Source: Candidatus Aenigmatarchaeota archaeon
GTDB taxonomy: Archaea; Aenigmatarchaeota; Aenigmatarchaeia; CG10238-14; SCSR01
DNA: 47,473 nt
Direction: 5' to 3'
Assembly (NCBI GenBank): GCA_016187405.1
Contig: JACPJS010000004.1
Coordinates: forward strand, 1 to 47,473
Positions 9,228 to 27,291 of the stretch are shown in pieces (positions within the stretch are counted from its first letter, which is position 1; the number at the start of each line of letters is the position of its first letter). The translations under genes and the position numbers were made by a program. The notes under the pieces are model-generated. The model worked only from the letters and a program-made list of their open reading frames with translations. It ran no database searches and was not told the origin of the DNA.

Positions 9228-10082
9228 ATGTCATTTCGAATAGGTCAAGTACTTCAACTAAGTCTTTTTAGTCTTGTTTTATCTTGCACAACTGGGGTAG
9301 CGCAGGCACCAAATTCACCAATACCAACAGTGCCTCCTCAAAGAGAGATAGAAATACAAAATGCTACAAAATGCGAGACACAAAAGGTTGTTAGAGGTCA
9401 TTATCAATGGAACTGGTCCGATGGAACATGCTTTTTTGTACCTGCTGTGTCAATAGATTGCAAAAATTGCAGTAAGGAAAAATTAACTGAATTACAAAAA
9501 ATATTCGATGCAGGATACGATCAAGCTTTGAAAGGCTTTGGAATGGAACCTTACGAAAATCCTCGTTTTAGAGGACTTCATGTAAAAATTCACGAAAATC
9601 ATCTACAGTTTGGTCTAAACCATAGTCCATCAGATGCTTATCGAATCTATGAAGGACCTGGAGCAATCGCACATGAGATTACTCACGAATTCGATATCTA
9701 TTTACTGGGAGATCACGGTCAATCATGGTACGCAGAAGGCTTGGCCGACTACATCGATGATGGTGTAATAAGAAAGAATGCACAGAAAGTTATCAACGAT
9801 GTTAAAAAGGATCCAGAATTCTGGACAAAATATCCTGAATGGAAGGAAGTCCATGATACAGGTGCCCTTTACTTCGGTGAATTGATAAACAAAGGATTGA
9901 CGCCAGAGAAAAACAGATTGGCTCTTAAATATCTCCATGATACACGACCGTATCAAGGGTCTAGATGGGCATCCCCAAAAATCATAAATGCCGCTTACGA
10001 AAAAGCATTGGGATTGAATTCGGGTGAACTTGATTATCTTTTAGCGCTACTGAAACCAGGGTTAGACGCAAATAGACGTTAA
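9228..10082 (+). CDS. Putative lipoprotein metallopeptidase (gluzincin-like HEITHEF)
   Basis: Lipobox LVLSC; GAIAHEITHEFDIYLLGDHGQSWYAEGLADYI gives HExxH plus downstream Glu; N-terminal CETQKVVRGHYQWNWSDGTCFFVP module. Confidence 0.7.
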   Translation: MSFRIGQVLQLSLFSLVLSCTTGVAQAPNSPIPTVPPQREIEIQNATKCETQKVVRGHYQWNWSDGTCFFVPAVSIDCKNCSKEKLTELQKIFDAGYDQALKGFGMEPYENPRFRGLHVKIHENHLQFGLNHSPSDAYRIYEGPGAIAHEITHEFDIYLLGDHGQSWYAEGLADYIDDGVIRKNAQKVINDVKKDPEFWTKYPEWKEVHDTGALYFGELINKGLTPEKNRLALKYLHDTRPYQGSRWASPKIINAAYEKALGLNSGELDYLLALLKPGLDANRR

Positions 10083-10115
10083 CAACTGGAAATTTAACAG
10101 ATATAATTAAACAAG

Positions 10116-10186
10116 TGGGTCCGAGGAGAATTGAACTCCTGCCTCGTCCACGTCAAAGACACGTCCTACCACTAGACTACGGACCC
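10116..10186 (-). tRNA. tRNA-Val (anticodon GAC)
   Basis: GGGTCCG/CGGACCC acceptor; D-arm GTCT/GGAC; loop TTGACGT; AGGAG-TTCAATT-CTCCT T-arm; A73. Confidence 0.93.
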
Positions 10187-10190
10187 ATGC

Positions 10191-10685
10191 TTAAACTTTG
10201 TACAGATATGAATAAAAATGTCCTGTTCTTATTTTCCTAACCTCCTTCCAGCCTTCTATAGGATGACTGGTTGAAACAATTCTAGTTCCTTTCTTCAGTT
10301 TCAACAATTTCGGTTTCAATCTCTGTGTAAGTTTGTGCGAGAGATACATCACAACCACGGTAGCATCTGATATGTTCTGTTTGAATATGTCGTTGTGGAT
10401 TATTTTTTTTCCCGGATTCTTCATACGGGACAACCAGACCATGAATCGATTTTTTTCTATCCCAATTGACTTTGCGTTGAATTCTTTTGATGCGATACTA
10501 ACAATTCTACCGTCACCTGAGCCTAAATCATATACAACATCATTTTTCTTCACATTCGCAAGTCTCAACATCTTTCTTATCGTATCTTTTGGCAAAGGAA
10601 TTGGTGGCGCTTCGTTTCTGACAAGTTCCAACCACAACCAAACAAGAAATGGAATAGGAATTAATGTCAACCAATACAAATCCAT
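10191..10685 (-). CDS. Membrane-anchored class I SAM-dependent methyltransferase
   Basis: N-terminal TM; VVYDLGSGDGRIVSIASKEF motif I. Confidence 0.75.
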   Translation of the reverse strand: MDLYWLTLIPIPFLVWLWLELVRNEAPPIPLPKDTIRKMLRLANVKKNDVVYDLGSGDGRIVSIASKEFNAKSIGIEKNRFMVWLSRMKNPGKKIIHNDIFKQNISDATVVVMYLSHKLTQRLKPKLLKLKKGTRIVSTSHPIEGWKEVRKIRTGHFYSYLYKV

Positions 10686-10712
10686 AAATAGCTTTTCGTT
10701 TATTGTTTATTT

Positions 10713-11078
10713 ATGGCAAGAGGTACTTTCCAAGGAGACGATATAAATATTTACCTAACTCCGGATGAAATAACAAATTTAGGGTTTTTGGAGATCAGGC
10801 GTGTTGGTAGTCGTGGCAGATTGGCTCATCCTCCACTTGAAGTTGAACTGGTAACCGATGGAGGATTAGTAAAAGCGACGATAGAAGTTACAAAATTGCA
10901 ACAACCTGAAAGATACAGTGACCATATAAAAGTTGATAGACGTCCAGAAGGTTTCTATATTCAAATTGATGAAATAGCCCATGACAGAATGCATTATGAC
11001 AGGCCAGATGATAGAAGGCATCCGCTTGCTGAAACTAGATACAACGGTTCTGACAAAGTAAGTTTTTGGTTAGAGTAA
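10713..11078 (+). CDS. Hypothetical protein
   Basis: 121-aa ORF, no recognised motif. Confidence 0.5.
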   Translation: MARGTFQGDDINIYLTPDEITNLGFLEIRRVGSRGRLAHPPLEVELVTDGGLVKATIEVTKLQQPERYSDHIKVDRRPEGFYIQIDEIAHDRMHYDRPDDRRHPLAETRYNGSDKVSFWLE

Positions 11079-11080
11079 GG

Positions 11081-11198
11081 CGCTGAAGGCGAGATTTGAA
11101 CTCGCAAGCAGCAAGCTGCGCTGGTTTAGCAAACTTACACGATATAAGGCTTTTACACCTATACATCTCAGTGCCATACCAGGTTAGGCGACTTCAGC
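11081..11198 (-). tRNA. tRNA-Ser (anticodon GCT) with 34-nt intron at position 29/30 (intron 11135-11168)
   Basis: Acceptor GCTGAAG/CTTCAGC, G73, long variable arm GCAGC-TT-GCTGC, T-arm GCGAG-TTCAAAT-CTCGC. Removing the intron gives anticodon stem CTG|GT-TTGCTAA-ACCAG. BHB: bulge TG^A, 4-bp helix GCAC/GTGT, bulge AA^G. Confidence 0.9.
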
Positions 11199-11281
11199 AT
11201 ACATAAAAGATAACAGTTGAAATTTATAAAATGTTATTAGAATGCTTAAATCTTTAACTATCTTCTATTTGTTTAGATTAT

Positions 11282-11614
11282 ATGGTACAAAGGTATTTCC
11301 CTGAGAGTGCGATCGAACTTAGATCTCCCCTAAATGGTGAGAGAATTATTGCAGGAACAGGTGATATAATACAATTAAGAAATTCTCGAACTGGGGGTAG
11401 TGTTGCGGGTTATGTTAGAGAAATTCATGCACGCAGCGTTACTCTTTCACACGAAGATCCGTATTTTAGAACAAAATATCTATGGCATGTTGTTCTTGGA
11501 ATGCATGATTATCACAAGTTTTTTCCAGGGGATAGAAGTTATGATTTGAGAAAATTCGATGAATTTGAAGTGTTGAAAAAACATCCCAACAATGTAGCGC
11601 CTCATAATAAATAA
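11282..11614 (+). CDS. Hypothetical protein
   Basis: 110-aa ORF. Confidence 0.45.
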   Translation: MVQRYFPESAIELRSPLNGERIIAGTGDIIQLRNSRTGGSVAGYVREIHARSVTLSHEDPYFRTKYLWHVVLGMHDYHKFFPGDRSYDLRKFDEFEVLKKHPNNVAPHNK

Positions 11615-11723
11615 ATTCTATCTTTTTCGTTTTGAAAATTTTTTATTATTCAGAAATATAACCTCACCATGAAAAAACAAATATTTAAACTAGTTTTACC
11701 AAATAACATAAGGTGAATGAAAA

Positions 11724-12020
11724 ATGCCAGTATCTGTAAGAGAAGTTTCTGATATGTTATCAAAGGATGTTTTCACAAACAAGGGATTTTACGTAGGTAA
11801 GATCAGTGAAATGGAATTTGATTTGACAAAATTCAAGGTAAGAGCGCTAGTTATCGAGGCAGCAAAGAGTTCGACAGTAGGAAAGATGATTGGCGGAAAG
11901 AGAGGAGTAGTAGTTCCTTATTCCATGGTGCAGTCAGTCGGAGATGTCGTGATAATGAAGCACATCAACGAGAACCTTCCTGAAGGGGAAGAGTTGGAAG
12001 CAGCTCCTGTTGGAAGATAA
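11724..12020 (+). CDS. PRC-barrel domain protein
   Basis: SKDVFTNKGFYVGKISEMEFDLTKFKVRALVIE..VVPYSMVQSVGDVVIM; SD AAGGTGA upstream. Confidence 0.8.
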   Translation: MPVSVREVSDMLSKDVFTNKGFYVGKISEMEFDLTKFKVRALVIEAAKSSTVGKMIGGKRGVVVPYSMVQSVGDVVIMKHINENLPEGEELEAAPVGR

Positions 12021-12028
12021 ATTCTAAA

Positions 12029-12304
12029 TTAACTTCTAATTTGAACAGACTTTTCTAAAGCGTCAGCAGCATCTCTCAATCCAATCCAGTATCTTGCTTT
12101 ACCTTCGACTATATATTTGTCATTTGGTTTGTAGAATCTCCCACGAAACTCTCGCCATCTTCCTTGAACAAAATCATATCCTTCGTCATCAACGCCAGTG
12201 ATAAATCCCAATAATTCATGTGCAGGATCCAATCTTTGTAGTCTTCTATAATCTTGTATAATCAACGAAATTACAGCATCGTGATCACTTGCTATGTCAC
12301 TCAT
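12029..12304 (-). CDS. Hypothetical protein
   Basis: 91-aa ORF. Confidence 0.45.
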   Translation of the reverse strand: MSDIASDHDAVISLIIQDYRRLQRLDPAHELLGFITGVDDEGYDFVQGRWREFRGRFYKPNDKYIVEGKARYWIGLRDAADALEKSVQIRS

Positions 12305-12379
12305 AAAATTAATACTAACATTAAAGATTTAAGCATCTTAGAATTGCATAGAAAATTCTAAAAGGAAAAAGAGTAAAGG

Positions 12380-12397
12380 GGTGAAATAAATTTCACC
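12380..12397 (-). terminator. Hairpin GGTGAAA-TTTA-TTTCACC after the ftsZ/micropeptide unit
   Basis: Perfect 7-bp inverted repeat followed on the minus strand by a pyrimidine-rich tract. Confidence 0.5.
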
Positions 12398-12462
12398 TAC
12401 CCTTCTTCAAATATGTCCATTTCTTCTACTTCTTCAAACGGATCCCATATGTCGTCTTCCAT
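12397..12462 (-). CDS. 21-aa acidic micropeptide downstream of ftsZ
   Basis: MEDDIWDPFEEVEEMDIFEEG* preceded by strong SD-like AAAGGGGGCG; same strand as ftsZ, ends at the hairpin. Confidence 0.5.
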   Translation of the reverse strand: MEDDIWDPFEEVEEMDIFEEG

Positions 12463-12512
12463 TTTCTTCGCCCCCTTTCGGTTAGATTAAATGTAGTAAG
12501 AGAGGCTGGGCC

Positions 12513-13664
12513 TCATCTTATTACATCAATTCCTAGAGAGTGACTGATTTCCCTTACGACAGGTGCTTCTCTCATTACCGGACCTAGGATGTACGGTGAA
12601 CGGACGCCTGTTATGATGGCTATTACTTGAACCTTGCCTTCGAACTCTGGAAGAATTCTAGCCCCCCAGAATACTTGTGCTGTTGGGTCAAGATGTCTTG
12701 CGACAGTTTCACCAATCAAGTTGACTTCGTCTAACTTGAGATCTGGTCCACCTGCAATGTGAACTAGTGCTCCTGAAGCTCCAGTGTAGTCAACTTCCAA
12801 CAATGGGTTTTGCAATGCTTTTGTAATTGCATCCTCTGCCCTGTTGCTCGAGCTGCTTTCACCTACTCCAATTGCTGCTACTCCACCTGAGTGCATCAGA
12901 GCTCTAACGTCTGCGTAGTCAAGATTGACCAGGCTTGGTAGAGTTATAGTTTCTGTGATTCCCTTTACCATGCTTGCGATTAACTCGTCAGCCACACCAA
13001 ATGCTTGTTGTACAGACAGGTTGCCTGCATATTTCAACAGTTTGTCATTTTCTATGACGATTGCAGTGTCTGATACCTGTCTTACCGCAGCCAAACCCTC
13101 TTCGGCTTTGTTTATTCTTGCCCCTTCTAGTTTGAAAGGCATTGTAACTACTGCGATGACAATCGCACCAAGTGACTTGGCGATCTCACATGCAATGGAA
13201 ACGGATCCAGTACCAGTTCCCTTTCCTAATCCAGCGATTGCGAATACAAGATCTGAACCATCAAGTTGTGCCTTGATATCATTTCTAGATTCTTCTGCTG
13301 ATTTTCGTCCGATGTCAGGAATACCTCCTGCTCCGAGGCCTCTTGTCAGTTCTCTTCCGATCAAGATTTTCTTGTCAGCTTTACCGACTGCCAAGTGTTT
13401 AGCGTCAGTGTTGATCGATACTGTATTTGCACCCTCGACTCCCATTTCTGTCAATCGAGTAACTGCGTTCTGTCCAGCACCCCCACAACCAATGACTGTA
13501 ACTTTAGCTTTCTTGACGGAGAAACCGAATTCTTGTTCTGCCAGTTTGTAGTAATCTACATTGCTGTATGTCGCACCTGAGCTTGACTCAAGTTTGAATC
13601 TATTCTGTAGAGTCTCACCCTGACCCTGGGAATTTCCCAGTACTTTTCTTACGATGCTGTCCAT
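12513..13664 (-). CDS. ftsZ: Cell division protein FtsZ
   Basis: VIGCGGAGQNAVTRL, tubulin signature AGLGKGTGTGS, SD AGGAGG. Confidence 0.97.
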   Translation of the reverse strand: MDSIVRKVLGNSQGQGETLQNRFKLESSSGATYSNVDYYKLAEQEFGFSVKKAKVTVIGCGGAGQNAVTRLTEMGVEGANTVSINTDAKHLAVGKADKKILIGRELTRGLGAGGIPDIGRKSAEESRNDIKAQLDGSDLVFAIAGLGKGTGTGSVSIACEIAKSLGAIVIAVVTMPFKLEGARINKAEEGLAAVRQVSDTAIVIENDKLLKYAGNLSVQQAFGVADELIASMVKGITETITLPSLVNLDYADVRALMHSGGVAAIGVGESSSSNRAEDAITKALQNPLLEVDYTGASGALVHIAGGPDLKLDEVNLIGETVARHLDPTAQVFWGARILPEFEGKVQVIAIITGVRSPYILGPVMREAPVVREISHSLGIDVIR

Positions 13665-13678
13665 GTTTTTCTCCTCCT

Positions 13679-13732
13679 ATCTCTTGCAAAACATATTTTG
13701 CGTAATCGAAAACTCTTTATTAAGAGATTTTC
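13679..13732 (-). promoter_or_regulatory. ftsZ 5' leader with mutually exclusive hairpins next to the SD
   Basis: Minus: GAAAATCTCTT-AATA-AAGAGTTTTC, then GCAAAATATGTTTTGC, then AAGAGATAGGAGG. ATCTCTT can pair with AAGAGAT next to the SD. Confidence 0.4.
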
Positions 13733-14042
13733 AATTAATGTTACGAGAAATGGAATTGGAGAAATAGTTGTAACTTAGAATTAAACTATACGTCACACAC
13801 AAAACACACACGAGTAACAATTATTTCGTTCTGATTTATATATACTTATTGTAAATTCCATTCTATATTTTTCACAACATACATTTCAAATTTCGTCATT
13901 TTCTAGAATGTTGTAGGCTTTGTTTATTCGTCAATCAGATGCATTTTACGATTGTGCACAAAAAAAATTCATATACAACACGTTGTAATCACAATTTTTT
14001 CCTTCGAAAATGTTTAAGTTGTAGAAAAATCAAAATGATTTC

Positions 14043-14585
14043 ATGGTTTTAGATTTTTCCCCAATTCAAACTGAAATTTTATTCAAACTTTTGGTAGCCA
14101 CAGGTATAGGTGCTTTGATAGGATTGGAGAGGGAATTAAAATATAGTCCTGTTGGAATCAAGACTTATTCTATCATAGGTCTTGGTTCGTGCCTTTTCAC
14201 GATTTTATCAGGTTTGGCAAATCAGGATTTTGTCGGGGGTATCGTTACTGGTGTCGGTTTCCTTGGCGCAGGTGCAATTTTCAAGAGTGACAAGGGAGTA
14301 AGAGGTCTCACAACGGCAGCTTTGGTCTGGATATCGGCAGCCTTAGGCATGGCGATAGGTTTTGGCTACTTTACATTAGCGTTGTTCGGAACTGTGATAG
14401 TTTACGTAATTTTGATAATCATTGGTTACATCGAAAGGAAATATATTTCAAGGATAGCTCAGGAAGGCGGTCTCGATATAGAAAGGGCTAAAAGAACTAT
14501 TGACTCCCTTTCAAAGTACTTGGATGAGACTAAGAAACACATCAAAAGCCTTCATAAAAAACAAAAGAAACCATCAACCAAATGA
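14043..14585 (+). CDS. MgtC/SapB family membrane protein
   Basis: GIGALIGLERE.....GIKTYSIIGLGSCLFTILS, GFLGAGAIFKSDKGVRGLTTAALVWISAALGMAIG. Confidence 0.92.
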   Translation: MVLDFSPIQTEILFKLLVATGIGALIGLERELKYSPVGIKTYSIIGLGSCLFTILSGLANQDFVGGIVTGVGFLGAGAIFKSDKGVRGLTTAALVWISAALGMAIGFGYFTLALFGTVIVYVILIIIGYIERKYISRIAQEGGLDIERAKRTIDSLSKYLDETKKHIKSLHKKQKKPSTK

Positions 14586-15542
14586 TAATTCCATCTGATT
14601 CTCATCTGTCTTTACTCTTCTATGCCTGACAGTCTTGTATTTTTCGAACCAATCCTTCACTTCATCGCCGAAAATAGGATGCATTACCTGACCAATCACA
14701 CCTGAAGTGCCGTCTCTGCCAAAATCTTTCTGTCTGTAATAATCTAATGCAACAATGTCAGTTCCTCCAACAAATTCGGTCTCATCTATATCAACAGCTC
14801 TACCATCTCTTATCACATAACCCCTTATCGCACGTTCACCTTTCTTTTTTTCGTATTTTTGAGCGAATTTCACTTGTTCTCTTCCCAATGCAGGTGCCGA
14901 ATACTGATGCCATTCTTTACTCATCCTTTTTATTCCACATACCAAATCTTTTCGAGGAACATCTCCTGAAAGCAATCTATCAATCTCAGTCTGTGCAAAA
15001 TTTCTGGCTGAAGAGTAATCTCTCTGAACCAGTGTCCGATTTACAAGTTGTTCAACAAAATTTCTTTCATAATTAGTTCTGTCACGAAAATGCCAATCAT
15101 ATCCGGGAGTTTTAAGATTACCACCGACGTATGCAATTACCCTTCCATCTCCAACAAGTATACATTGTCCTGTTCCCAGTTCAATCATATTTGGATATTC
15201 AGTCCCATCATTGTCAACAAAGACAAAAATACCAGCTACTGTAACTATTTTTTCCTTTTGCAATTCTTGTACAAACCTTTCTTTCGTAGTTTCTATCCAT
15301 GAATTGACTTGTTCCTTCCAAAATCCATGAATACCGTAGAAAACATTATCGTCCTTTGATTCTAGATCTTCCATTATGACTGCAGAAGCCTTTTCCATCC
15401 TTCTTGCCCAAGTTACCCTTCCAGTATTATCTTGAGGAACGTGATTGAACGTTCTGTAGAATCTGGATTTCAAATAAGGAGCAAGAGCTGTAGGGAAGAA
15501 CGGTATATGAAGAACTTTAACGTCGTATACGCCTAGATTCAT
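14574..15542 (-). CDS. C-terminal (palm/thumb) half of a split, degenerate family-B DNA polymerase
   Basis: Order matches PolB: GVYDVKVLHIPFFPTAL (degraded motif A), NVFYG (motif B remnant), FVDNDGTEY (motif C-like), thumb DLVCGIKRMSKEWHQY....ALDYYRQKD. Confidence 0.65.
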   Translation of the reverse strand: MNLGVYDVKVLHIPFFPTALAPYLKSRFYRTFNHVPQDNTGRVTWARRMEKASAVIMEDLESKDDNVFYGIHGFWKEQVNSWIETTKERFVQELQKEKIVTVAGIFVFVDNDGTEYPNMIELGTGQCILVGDGRVIAYVGGNLKTPGYDWHFRDRTNYERNFVEQLVNRTLVQRDYSSARNFAQTEIDRLLSGDVPRKDLVCGIKRMSKEWHQYSAPALGREQVKFAQKYEKKKGERAIRGYVIRDGRAVDIDETEFVGGTDIVALDYYRQKDFGRDGTSGVIGQVMHPIFGDEVKDWFEKYKTVRHRRVKTDENQMELSFG

Positions 15543-16780
15543 CCTTTCATCCCCAAAATCACCAGTTTCTTATCGTTCATATCGATGGAAGGCTGTCTTC
15601 TTTCACCCAAAGTCAACAGACTTCTTTGAGTTCTCACAGAATAATAATTCGTCACAGAGTTACCAGTGAAACATACTGTAGTAGGATCTGTTTCAAAATC
15701 TATAGCCTCAATTACAATCTGTGGTAAATCTAGTTGTCCTATTCGAACAGTTGTTAATGTATCCCTTGCACAATATCGTGCAATCTTAAATGCAACACCC
15801 CTGTCGTACTTTGCCCTTTCACCAAGTACGTCGAATTCATCTCCTTTGATTTCCTTTTCCATAGGTATTCCATGGTTTTGGGCTACAGTTGGTAATGTGT
15901 TGTTTGGCAATCCGAGATTATTTCTGGACCATGCAAGTGTATCTATCACAAATCTACCATCCACAACTACCTTGTCTGTTTGATTCTTCTCTTTTCCTGC
16001 TCTGAATGAATGGAAACCTGGAATGCCACCTTCAATCCTAGGTTCTGTTCCACCTATTCCAATTCTAAAATCACCACTTCTTCTCAAATGCGGTAAATCA
16101 AAATCCATCAGGTTATGTCCATAAATCCACAAAGGATCCTTTTCTATTATATCCTGCTTGACCAATTCTACCAGTCCCGGAATCGAATCAGCTCTCTCAA
16201 CTCTGAAATGATGACCATCAATATCCATCCAATCCGTACCAGTATCATAAAGTGTGAAAATCGTGTTACCTTTGCCACTGACCCCAGCAACCATGTATAT
16301 TAGCGGATTGTCGGTGTTCATACCGGTCAATTCAATGTCTAGTCCATAGAACGTATCTTGCAGAAGATGTTCAGGTCTGACCTTGCGCATTGTTACAGTT
16401 CCATTTTTTATGGCAAGCAGAGGAGGATATCTCAATTTCAACGATACTTCTGGCTTTGAAACCATTCTATATACCTTAGTCGCCTTCTTGAATTCTAAAT
16501 CAGATTTGAGCTCTCTTGGACCGTAAAGTACAACAACATACATTGATCCCGAATTGAAAATTCTCGGATTATATTGCACCAATGAGGTGCCTCTCAGAGA
16601 TTTTTCCAGTTCGTCTGCCTCGATGAAAGAGAGTCTATCACTGACGAAATGATCATCCATATCACGTTCGACTACATGAGAATGTCCTTGATAATCCCTG
16701 ACATATAACAAAGTTTTTCTACCTGAATCAGGATTCTTCACTCTGATATCTAAAAGGAAACCGTCTTTGACTTCATCCAT
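15539..16780 (-). CDS. N-terminal plus 3'-5' exonuclease half of a split family-B DNA polymerase
   Basis: ExoI-like FYGLDIELTG, ExoII YGHNLMDFDLPHL, ExoIII YCARD; ATGA overlap with the downstream half. Confidence 0.8.
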   Translation of the reverse strand: MDEVKDGFLLDIRVKNPDSGRKTLLYVRDYQGHSHVVERDMDDHFVSDRLSFIEADELEKSLRGTSLVQYNPRIFNSGSMYVVVLYGPRELKSDLEFKKATKVYRMVSKPEVSLKLRYPPLLAIKNGTVTMRKVRPEHLLQDTFYGLDIELTGMNTDNPLIYMVAGVSGKGNTIFTLYDTGTDWMDIDGHHFRVERADSIPGLVELVKQDIIEKDPLWIYGHNLMDFDLPHLRRSGDFRIGIGGTEPRIEGGIPGFHSFRAGKEKNQTDKVVVDGRFVIDTLAWSRNNLGLPNNTLPTVAQNHGIPMEKEIKGDEFDVLGERAKYDRGVAFKIARYCARDTLTTVRIGQLDLPQIVIEAIDFETDPTTVCFTGNSVTNYYSVRTQRSLLTLGERRQPSIDMNDKKLVILGMKG

Positions 16781-16830
16781 AAAGATGAATCTCTGATAAG
16801 GAATTTAAGCCTTAGATTTGCTGTAGTTTT

Positions 16831-17808
16831 ATGCCACGTGTCATATCGTCGACAAGAACACTGACGAATCCAGTTTTGATAGACAGGTTGCTATTCGTAT
16901 TGTTGCCTTTGTTGGATGATAGACCATTCTTTCCATCAAGAGAAAATAAATATGCAGAAATGTTCAGGCAGTCTCAAGAAAGAGTCCAAGAAAAACCGAT
17001 AGGTGCATTGAAACTAGGACATGATTATCATGCACAGTTGAAAGACCATATTGGAGATCTTGTAGACAAAGTCGTCATTCATACGACAGGAGTTTCGGTA
17101 GATTACACACAGGGAAGATATCCTAGGCACTTGGGAATAGATCCGATGAGTGAAAGAAACAGGTTGTATGCCGAGATTCAGAGTTTGATGCACAAGATTG
17201 GTGTCGAATGGAAATATGACGGTGAATTTCCTAAAGAATTATTCGTTTGGATACCAGTTGCACATGAAGTTCATCCTCTTGTTGTAAGAAGAGATGATTC
17301 ATTACAACATGCGTTCCCAACCGCAGTGAAACATGCAAATTCTATAGCAGAAGGAGAAAACAGGAAAACTTTCGGAGATTTGAAAAGAGAACTAGGTGAC
17401 GAAGATTTCAAGAAAGGAAATTATTTATTTTCACCAGCGCTTTTCGATGTGGATGTAGCTAAAAGATTTTATCTTGATGTAGACGAGGGGCAACTTCAAA
17501 CCTCTCTAACTTTCAACAGATATCTTCTGGGAAACGCATTTGCAAAATTGATGTTGAAATATCTGGAACATGCTGATGGAATCAAAGGAATGATAAACAT
17601 CTATTCCGAACGTGGATCTTATGCATATGATGTTATGAAGATTGCTCAAACAGTTCTCAGAAGGAAATATGGTCAGATGTTTACAATAAACGATTTCGGA
17701 GGAATAATGAGGAATGCCGAGATGCCACAAGAAGCTGAAGCACACATATCTTCATTGAGAATATTGGAAGGTGCAATTAAGAGTTCAGCAAGGAAATATG
17801 CAAGGTGA
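16831..17808 (+). CDS. Hypothetical protein, cassette partner of nuclease and split PolB
   Basis: 325-aa ORF, 4 nt upstream of the PD-(D/E)XK gene, divergent from the split PolB genes. Confidence 0.65.
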   Translation: MPRVISSTRTLTNPVLIDRLLFVLLPLLDDRPFFPSRENKYAEMFRQSQERVQEKPIGALKLGHDYHAQLKDHIGDLVDKVVIHTTGVSVDYTQGRYPRHLGIDPMSERNRLYAEIQSLMHKIGVEWKYDGEFPKELFVWIPVAHEVHPLVVRRDDSLQHAFPTAVKHANSIAEGENRKTFGDLKRELGDEDFKKGNYLFSPALFDVDVAKRFYLDVDEGQLQTSLTFNRYLLGNAFAKLMLKYLEHADGIKGMINIYSERGSYAYDVMKIAQTVLRRKYGQMFTINDFGGIMRNAEMPQEAEAHISSLRILEGAIKSSARKYAR

Positions 17809-17812
17809 TTAA

Positions 17813-18814
17813 ATGGGAGATTGTCCGTTCAAACCATATATCAGCTGTTATTTTTCCGATAGATGCCCTGGCAACAAACCAGCTCATTGTACATATGATC
17901 TTCTGTTAGCACACGGAACATCAACACTCGATAAAGATGCGATAGAAAATAATTACAAAGTCAAGCCAATTGAACAGGTTATAGATGAACTCAACAAAGC
18001 TGATAATTATGTATTTGATGAAAGCGGTAATCATAGAGATTTCACAAAGTTGCGAGCCGGCAGAAAAATAGAACCCTATCCATTCCAACCAGTTTCAGGA
18101 GACATGTATCATATCAGAGGAAGTGAGTTTGTTTCACGATCACATTTGGGGAGATTGGTGGGAAAAATGCGTTTTCCAGTTTCCTTCCCAGATCATTATA
18201 GGGATGCTGGTATTGCCATAGACGCAGTCGTCACGCATCAAGACCACGATGATTATGTTCATAATCAAACTTTGTCCAATCCAATGAACAGAAACGAATA
18301 TTGCCAGAAGGAAGTCTTTGCAGATATAGGTGGTTTGGTGTTCATGGGTCACATAGACGTTTCATTGAGAATGGGCGATACACTTGTACTATTGGATGTC
18401 AAAAGAGCAGCACAGTCAAATCCAGGACACAAAAAACAATTGTTGTCATACGCTCTTGCAGTAGACAGAGCAGGCGAGTTTGATGATTATGTTCTGGTAA
18501 ATATGAATCACGTGAATAAAATAAGTTCACGCCCGATGAATCCGAGGTTTGAAGTATTACATATTGACAAGGGAACATCAAGAATGATACCGGCATTATC
18601 AGAAGAAGCGAGAAAATCATTTACGATACAACAAAGCATGATGGCCAATCCTGATATCATGCGTGCATTGTGGGAATTAGAAAGGCCTGATGGCAAGAAA
18701 TCTCTAATATACAGAGGACTAGTTCCGTATGTCCAATATCTTTTTGATCACATGGATGAAAGGTTCGATCTTCTAGATCCCAAGTTCAGAAGAGGATTGG
18801 AATTAGCAGCTTAA
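17813..18814 (+). CDS. PD-(D/E)XK (RecB/Cas4-like) nuclease with N-terminal Cys cluster
   Basis: GHIDVSLRMGDTLVLLDVKRAAQSNPGHKKQLLSYALAV matches D...DxK...QL..Y; N-terminal CPFKPYISCYFSDRCPGNKPAHC. Confidence 0.7.
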   Translation: MGDCPFKPYISCYFSDRCPGNKPAHCTYDLLLAHGTSTLDKDAIENNYKVKPIEQVIDELNKADNYVFDESGNHRDFTKLRAGRKIEPYPFQPVSGDMYHIRGSEFVSRSHLGRLVGKMRFPVSFPDHYRDAGIAIDAVVTHQDHDDYVHNQTLSNPMNRNEYCQKEVFADIGGLVFMGHIDVSLRMGDTLVLLDVKRAAQSNPGHKKQLLSYALAVDRAGEFDDYVLVNMNHVNKISSRPMNPRFEVLHIDKGTSRMIPALSEEARKSFTIQQSMMANPDIMRALWELERPDGKKSLIYRGLVPYVQYLFDHMDERFDLLDPKFRRGLELAA

Positions 18815-18851
18815 CTATTTTTATTTCAATCTACCAATTAGAAGAAGTGAT

Positions 18852-19145
18852 ATTATAACAGATTACCAGAAAGTTGACAGCGAACTGATAAAGAGAATCG
18901 CAAAGAATGCAAGACTGAATTTGTCAAGCGAAGAGATAGAAAAATTCACGAAAGAACTGAAAGATATTCTGCAAGCATTCAAAAGTCTGGACGAGATTAA
19001 TACCGATAAAGTTGAACCGTCATTTCATCCGCAAAAGATTTCTGATGTGTATAGGGAAGACAAACCTGAAAAATTCGAATGGAACCCATTAGGAAATGCA
19101 GAACATAAAGAGAAAAAATATTTCAAGGGACCGAAGATCATATGA
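18852..19145 (+). CDS. gatC: Glutamyl/aspartyl-tRNA amidotransferase subunit C (likely ATT or ATA start; track start 18921 is too late)
   Basis: ITDYQKVDSELIKRIAKNARLNLSSEEIEKFTKELKDILQAFKSL..DEINTDKVEPSFHP. Confidence 0.82.
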   Translation: MITDYQKVDSELIKRIAKNARLNLSSEEIEKFTKELKDILQAFKSLDEINTDKVEPSFHPQKISDVYREDKPEKFEWNPLGNAEHKEKKYFKGPKII

Positions 19146-19867
19146 AGCTGAACGACAAAGTAGCAATTGTAACAGGATCCAGTAGAGGTATAGGAAGAGC
19201 AACTGCTGTAAAATTGTCAAAGGAAGGTTATAGAGTTGTAATTAATTATAATGAAGATTTGGATGGAGCTAATAAAACAAAACAATTGTGTGAAAAAGAT
19301 TCTTTAATTATAAAGGCCGATGTTAGTAAAATTGCTGAATGTAAAAAACTTGTTGATGAGACTTTGAAAAAATTCGGTCGAATAGATGTTTTGGTTAATA
19401 ATGCAGGGGTTGCAAATAAATTACTAGTTGAAGATGTTACTGAAAAAGATTGGAATTACATAATCGAAACAAATTTGAAAGCCGTATTTTTCCTTAGTCA
19501 ACTAGTTTCAAAAAATATGAAAAGTGGAAGTATAGTTAACATAAGTTCGATACGTGCTTTTGATGGCAGACCTGGAAGAAGTGTATATGATATTTCAAAA
19601 GCTGGTATTGTGAGATTAACTAAAGACTTTGCGCTTGAACTAGGCGGTAGAAAAATAAGAGTAAACTCCATTGCACCAGGATATGTAGAAACCGACATTA
19701 ACAAATCCATGACAAAAGAAATTAGAGAACAGATGACACAACAAATTCCAATGAAGAGATTTGGTGAACCTGAAGAAATTGCAAATGTTATAGCATTTCT
19801 TGTTTCTGACGAAGCAAGCTACATAAATGGCGAAGTAATTGTTGTTGATGGTGGTTTTCTGTGCTAA
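19142..19867 (+). CDS. Short-chain dehydrogenase/reductase (FabG-like)
   Basis: VTGSSRGIGRATA, NNAG, YDISKAG, C-terminal SDEASYINGEVIVVDGGF. Confidence 0.93.
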   Translation: MKLNDKVAIVTGSSRGIGRATAVKLSKEGYRVVINYNEDLDGANKTKQLCEKDSLIIKADVSKIAECKKLVDETLKKFGRIDVLVNNAGVANKLLVEDVTEKDWNYIIETNLKAVFFLSQLVSKNMKSGSIVNISSIRAFDGRPGRSVYDISKAGIVRLTKDFALELGGRKIRVNSIAPGYVETDINKSMTKEIREQMTQQIPMKRFGEPEEIANVIAFLVSDEASYINGEVIVVDGGFLC

Positions 19868-26575: not shown

Positions 26576-26661
26576 GCCTCATTAGCTCAGTAGGTAGAGC
26601 AGCACGCTGTTAAGTTTCTGCAGATACGTGAAGGTCCGCGGTTCGAGTCCGCGATGGGGCG
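26576..26661 (+). tRNA. tRNA-Asn (anticodon GTT) with 13-nt intron at 37/38 (intron 26613-26625)
   Basis: GCCTCAT/ATGGGGC acceptor, GCTC/GAGC D-arm, loop CTGTTA^...^A, CGCGG-TTCGAGT-CCGCG T-arm; 4-bp BHB helix CTGT/GCAG; mature length 73. Confidence 0.9.
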
Positions 26662-27291
26662 CTATTTACTAATCACGTACAAGTCAACTTCAATCTCTTT
26701 CTTTGGCTTGTCATGGAACTTGAACATATGCTGAATAGGAAACTTGTACGGAATGATTTTTTCCACTTGTCCTCCACGATCCTCTATGAATTTCGTCAGG
26801 AACTGAACAGTTTTTTCATAACCATCCTTGTGCAACGAATAGATTTTATTTCCACATTCCAATGCCTTTTCTAAAAATATTCTATCGGCATGTTCTTTCT
26901 GTATTCCAAATGGCGGATTTTGTATTACAGTGTCACATTTACCAGAGAATTTCTTCAGATCAGATTTGATAAACTTGATTGAACCCTTCACAGCAATATT
27001 GTTCGTTATAATGAATTCCATGTTTTGTTCTGCGACATTAAGGACTTGATCGTCTATGTCAACTGCAATCACTTCCTTTGCCCCGAGTATTAGTGCACCT
27101 ATGGCAAGTCTACCACTGCCACATCCAAGATCGTACACAACCTTACCTTCAATGTCACCAGACATATATGCCTGATGCAGTATATCAGCAGCGAGTTCTC
27201 CTGGAATTGTATACTGTTCCAATGATGGCTTAGGAGTTTCTATTTGTTTCAGTTTAGAAAGAGTTATCTCGAGCTGTTTCTTGGAATGCAT
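26662..27291 (-). CDS. METTL5-like class I RNA/DNA methyltransferase
   Basis: VYDLGCGSGRLAIGALILGA, VIQNPPFGIQKEHADRIFLEKAL. Confidence 0.85.
   Translation of the reverse strand: MHSKKQLEITLSKLKQIETPKPSLEQYTIPGELAADILHQAYMSGDIEGKVVYDLGCGSGRLAIGALILGAKEVIAVDIDDQVLNVAEQNMEFIITNNIAVKGSIKFIKSDLKKFSGKCDTVIQNPPFGIQKEHADRIFLEKALECGNKIYSLHKDGYEKTVQFLTKFIEDRGGQVEKIIPYKFPIQHMFKFHDKPKKEIEVDLYVISK

Follow-up and report, generated by a model that had tools for sequence, protein, structure and literature searches.

A rare accessory cassette of Aenigmatarchaeota linking a PolB-derived, predicted exonuclease-only protein with a RecB/Cas4-type nuclease

The stretch of DNA analyzed here (the window, 47,473 nucleotides) comes from an Aenigmatarchaeota (DPANN) genome of 440 kb that is 73% complete. 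The original prediction had placed a divergent cassette of four open reading frames (ORFs) in it, and all four are there: two on the minus strand, 15539-16780 (413 amino acids [aa], the N-terminal, exonuclease part of a PolB-like protein) and 14574-15542 (322 aa, a remnant palm and thumb), and two on the plus strand, 16831-17808 (an orphan protein of 325 aa) and 17813-18814 (a PD-(D/E)XK nuclease of 333 aa). The packing is as tight as had been claimed, with an ATGA overlap between the PolB ORFs, a 4-nucleotide (nt) gap between the orphan and nuclease genes, and a divergent spacer of 50 nt. The genes beside the cassette are housekeeping genes.

The two minus-strand ORFs together do represent a B-family polymerase. 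The N-terminal part matches Pfam DNA_pol_B_exo1 (E = 4e-5), and an unbroken relative in the genome that we call G011 (Candidatus Aenigmatarchaeota archaeon Yes49-35, JASEGN010000004.1; same family as the window, other genus) matches the same Pfam family at 9e-12 and solved archaeal PolBs at 3e-12. The C-terminal part had no family match when searched by itself; we call it PolB on the basis of the unbroken relative and of a profile of the window and G011 proteins, which aligned with the B3-type PolBs of relatives over columns 132 to 681 (hhalign probability 98, E = 1e-14). The cassette PolB aligns much less well with the canonical PolB group of ~900 aa than with the B3-type group of ~800 aa. 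Its exonuclease, palm, and thumb follow one another as in PolB, and by these alignments it is a descendant of archaeal B3-type PolB.

The description of this PolB as degenerate applies to its polymerase half and fails for its exonuclease half. In alignments, the ExoI, ExoII, and ExoIII residues are all intact in the window and G011 proteins; the catalytic set in the window is D148, E150, D228, and D340, with Tyr336 in ExoIII, in keeping with a DEDD exonuclease of PolB type (DxE, Nx3-4D, and Yx3D motifs). The fingers and motif B are deleted from both proteins, DTD and KKxY are absent from both in alignments with B3 PolBs, the Asp of motif A differs between the two, and motif C is placed differently by two alignments, neither of which keeps DTD. 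Motifs A, B, and C of an active B-family polymerase (DxxSLYPS, KxxxNSxYG, and DTD) were not found, and Pfam gave no match to PF00136 in the cassette PolB-like proteins. With its exonuclease residues kept but fingers and DTD motif lost, the protein is predicted to be exonuclease-only. At its C terminus, QMELSF in the window (QMELSFG, 14577-14597, minus strand) and QLKLF in G011 align where B3 enzymes carry QxxLxxFF at the PCNA-binding motif position, and the tail is possibly clamp-binding. AlphaFold with an alignment of three rows returned no usable fold of the PolB-like protein (pLDDT 34.5).

The reading frame of the window PolB changes on the minus strand at 15539-15565, within GTGATTTTGGGGATGAAAGGATGA, which includes T_TTG_GGG and the ATGA overlap (15539-15542); the run TTTTGGGG lies at 15551-15558. 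Because the G011 counterpart is one unbroken ORF of 706 aa, we regard the break as a single one-base frame change and reject the split PolB of the original prediction as a natural gene arrangement. The simplest reading is a base missing from a homopolymer, through error or mutation; re-initiation or programmed -1 frameshifting would fit as well.

The plus-strand ORF at 17813-18814 encodes, as predicted, a PD-(D/E)XK protein of RecB/Cas4 type, whose core motifs and four N-terminal cysteines are kept in G011. The window and G011 nucleases have an HxD..DxK..QxxxY motif in common, and D182, D195, K197, Q209, and Y213, as well as Cys 4, 12, 18, and 26, are invariant between them. The D...DxK...QxxxY core and RecB- and Cas4-type profile matches place the protein in the RecB/Cas4 group, and its profile also matches the nuclease domain of a RecB-like helicase. 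The family matches are weak: TIGR00372 (Cas4) gave 9.8e-5 and 22 bits, below the curated cut-off of 65, so the protein does not qualify as a Cas4 of CRISPR adaptation. No cas1 or cas2 was recognized by eye among the adjoining ORFs of the window and G011. In Cas4, the cluster cysteines are divided between both protein ends, whereas the window nuclease carries all four N-terminally. Two further matches were dropped, one in G119 to an ordinary Cas4-like protein of 223 aa and a weak one in G253.

The orphan gene (16831-17808) lives up to that designation, as its product has a convincing match in none of Pfam, PHROGs, PADLOC, NCBIfam, and PDB. Among 392 relatives, no homologue was found outside G011, and a scan of genome contigs gave no match. 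AlphaFold with an alignment of two rows gave no reliable fold (pLDDT 41), and Foldseek with this low-confidence model found nothing significant.

The linkage of orphan, nuclease, and PolB recurs, clearly in G011 and in a distant version in G017, a genome from another family of the same order. G011 has the one close nuclease homologue among 57 relatives (locus L003, 8487-9494, minus strand); the orphan gene adjoins it (9481-10443, minus strand), and the single-ORF PolB-like gene faces both (10457-12577, plus strand). Identities between window and G011 are 35% for the nuclease, 37% for the orphan, 44% for the exonuclease half of PolB, and 29% for the rest of PolB. The G017 locus was found by the nuclease profile. 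There, the C-terminal half of a 643-aa protein is the nuclease (hhalign probability 95, E = 2.8e-8; score 65.6 versus 25.6 for the next unrelated ORF), and a 588-aa protein faces this fusion. The latter scored 32.9 against the cassette PolB (unrelated ORFs, at most 27.2; shuffles, at most 25.8) and 37 with a profile including B3 PolBs; its ExoIII reads HxxxD, and when 392 genomes were searched in six frames, the sole other match of this protein was to the exonuclease domain of a canonical PolB of B3 type. With moderate confidence, we consider it related to the cassette PolB. The orphan was not found in G017, and comparison with the N-terminal half of the fusion did not support that half as its homologue. 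A gene for a PLD-family protein (L008:10939-11568, plus strand; PLDc_2, 1.7e-18; DrmC-like matches; hydrophobic middle) follows the G017 PolB-like gene after 22 nt and is perhaps an extra component.

The divergent genes are separated, start to start, by 50 nt in the window (16781-16830), 52 nt in G011 (measured from Met14, which corresponds to the start of the window protein), and 52 nt in G017. In the middle of every spacer lies an AT-rich TTTAA box, ~25 nt away from either start (AATTTAA at 16802-16808 in the window; palindromic TTTAAA in G011). Such short spacers between divergent genes are not unusual here (the window contains a further one, also of 52 nt), so that spacing alone is weak evidence. 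With the TATA-like box in all three, the proposed shared bidirectional promoter is likely, and in an archaeon one TATA region driving leaderless transcripts in both directions would fit.

We investigated the distribution of the cassette in 392 relatives. It occurs in three, as two close members and one very distant one, and is absent from four congeners of the window genome. The nuclease was found only in the window, G011, and G017, apart from one RecB-like helicase domain, and a scan of genome contigs with the PolB-like protein found G011 only. Congener G003 has the gene order PRC-barrel, FtsZ, MgtC, 354-aa protein, GatC, SDR, oxidase-like, GatA, which matches the window except that the 354-aa gene sits where the cassette does. 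With a different gene in this syntenic slot, the cassette has been acquired, lost, or swapped in one piece, and on this synteny it is an accessory unit. The G003 slot protein (L033:4586-5650, minus strand) has no Pfam, NCBIfam, or PADLOC match, and its N terminus reads like a PIN domain. Two other genes in the window are unusual: gatC (18855-19146, plus strand) has an apparent ATA start, where G003 and G004 have ATG, with no in-frame ATG, GTG, or TTG just upstream (a rare start codon or a sequence error); and a tRNA gene (26576-26662, plus strand), on which Rfam agrees, was given an anticodon of only two bases by ARAGORN, perhaps because of an intron.

Of the 36 genomes of the order, 33 have canonical PolBs of ~900 and/or ~800 aa apart from the cassette; the window genome, 73% complete, showed none. 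Together with the recurrent linkage, this agrees with the original view of a module separate from the replicative polymerase. In four genomes of the window's family (G009, G010, G011, and G006; L051-L054), the canonical B3-type PolB is itself interrupted at one shared position, directly behind the DTDS motif (near residue 585), with ~80 to 550 nt in between and, in G009, a radical-SAM-like ORF in the gap. It forms two separate frames in three of the four, the G010 gene being also frame-shifted, and looks like a naturally split gene.

Comparison gives us homology, retention of the exonuclease and nuclease motifs, loss of the polymerase motifs, a conserved linkage, and gain or loss at the slot; from these we infer the enzymatic activities and substrate of the cassette, the assembly of its proteins into a complex, and a role, whether in repair, recombination, or defense as originally proposed. 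Our preferred reading, to which we give a probability of about 0.5, is a compact accessory two-nuclease module of some Aenigmatarchaeota that degrades DNA or processes its ends and leans toward defense. A B3-type PolB would have been reduced to its 3'-5' exonuclease, keeping the thumb that holds DNA and perhaps a tail that binds the clamp, and would be expressed with the RecB/Cas4-type nuclease and a partner protein from the shared bidirectional promoter. The two nucleases probably work on shared DNA ends: the PolB part would trim 3' ends, the PD-(D/E)XK part would cut or trim the other strand, and the orphan may be an adaptor or sensor. Because the distribution is patchy and slot-swapped, destruction of foreign DNA is somewhat more likely than housekeeping repair. 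Against the module stand the small number of members (two close and a distant one), the failure to find the orphan in G017, and the broken frame of the window PolB. No curated multi-gene anti-phage system matched, PADLOC giving single-protein resemblance to Cas4 and DEDDh only, and no other defense genes were recognized beside the cassette. More tentatively, and with the balance tipping against it, the cassette could be a new DPANN defense or end-processing system made of a possibly clamp-tethered, polymerase-derived 3'-5' exonuclease, a RecB/Cas4-type nuclease, and a dedicated adaptor.

The same nucleases could instead serve the host as an accessory module for repair, processing broken or damaged chromosomal ends while PCNA tethers the PolB remnant. 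The B3 ancestry, the remnant thumb, the C-terminal motif at the PCNA-binding position, and the housekeeping neighbors would suit such a role, which we nevertheless consider unlikely, given the absence of the cassette from four congeners and nearly all relatives and its replacement in G003. An integrated remnant of a virus or mobile-element replication module (polymerase plus Cas4-like nuclease) is less probable again. Archaeal viruses and casposons do carry PolB with Cas4-like nucleases (PMC5882107, PMC5704561, PMC4046053), and both the patchy distribution and weak matches to families of phage exonuclease subunits and of Cas4-like proteins point the same way. However, the cassette proteins have no relatives in the phage, plasmid, and viral-contig collections searched; none of the adjoining ORFs was read as an integrase, no tRNA or strong repeat lies beside the cassette (strong repeats being absent from 13600-19300), and the unit is conserved across genera although the polymerase is inactive by its motifs. 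The one-base break in the window PolB might suggest a cassette decaying into a pseudogene remnant without present function, but we give this little credence: no other break was seen, the remaining frames run their full length, the intact relative at ~40% identity testifies to purifying selection over a long time, and one-base homopolymer changes are typical assembly errors. A PolB2-type translesion mutasome, to which a derived archaeal PolB with partner genes might point, is hardly credible, as the intact exonuclease motifs and lost polymerase motifs are the reverse of PolB2 and the partners are not PPB2 or iRadA (PMC7544198, PMC11791011).

PolB2/Dpo2 is, like the cassette PolB of the preferred two-nuclease module, derived, patchy, non-replicative, and part of a conserved gene set. 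It has disrupted exonuclease motifs, one kept motif C Asp, translesion activity, and PPB2 and iRadA as partners (PMC2527604, PMC4104785, PMC7544198, PMC11791011). By the definition used, ExoI is not conserved and ExoIII is missing in PolB2 (PMC7544198), whereas the cassette PolB keeps both and has lost the polymerase motifs. Its neighbors are the 325-aa orphan and the nuclease instead of a PPB2 of ~90 aa and iRadA, neither of which adjoins the cassette in the window, G011, or G017. We therefore rejected PolB2 membership, and the likening to known inactivated archaeal PolB2 paralogues falls with it. With B3-type PolB (Pyrococcus/KOD-like), the cassette protein shares descent, exonuclease catalytic residues, thumb, and the C-terminal Q..L..F position, but it has no fingers, motifs A, B, and C, or KKxY, is ~706 instead of ~800 aa long, and is linked to a nuclease and an orphan. 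Polymerase-dead, exonuclease-retaining forms are known from bacterial PolX, likewise a polymerase kept for its exonuclease but of an unrelated family with a PHP exonuclease (PMC12926913).

Casposons and archaeal viruses also bring PolB and nuclease genes together (PMC4046053, PMC5882107); in the cassette, however, the polymerase is inactive by motifs, no Cas1 or integrase was recognized on reading the adjoining ORFs of the window and G011, and no terminal repeats were seen. Solo-Cas4 is common in DPANN, where unknown defense pathways have been suggested, and these solo-Cas4/RecB-type PD-(D/E)XK proteins share core motifs and occurrence in small DPANN genomes with the window nuclease (PMC5704561), which differs in its score below the Cas4 cut-off, its all-N-terminal cysteines, and its conserved PolB partner. 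In the literature searched, the coverage of which was incomplete, we found no published description of a PolB exonuclease paired with a Cas4/RecB-type nuclease. The sequence comparisons support the anatomy well: the cassette is rare, conserved, and accessory, and combines a PolB that is apparently exonuclease-only with a second nuclease. Where PolB2 lost its exonuclease, this lineage took the reverse course, the polymerase apparently being kept for its proofreading nuclease, and its conserved pairing, in tiny genomes that resemble those of symbionts, with a nuclease of Cas4/RecB type offers a testable candidate for the role of solo Cas4-like proteins in DPANN.
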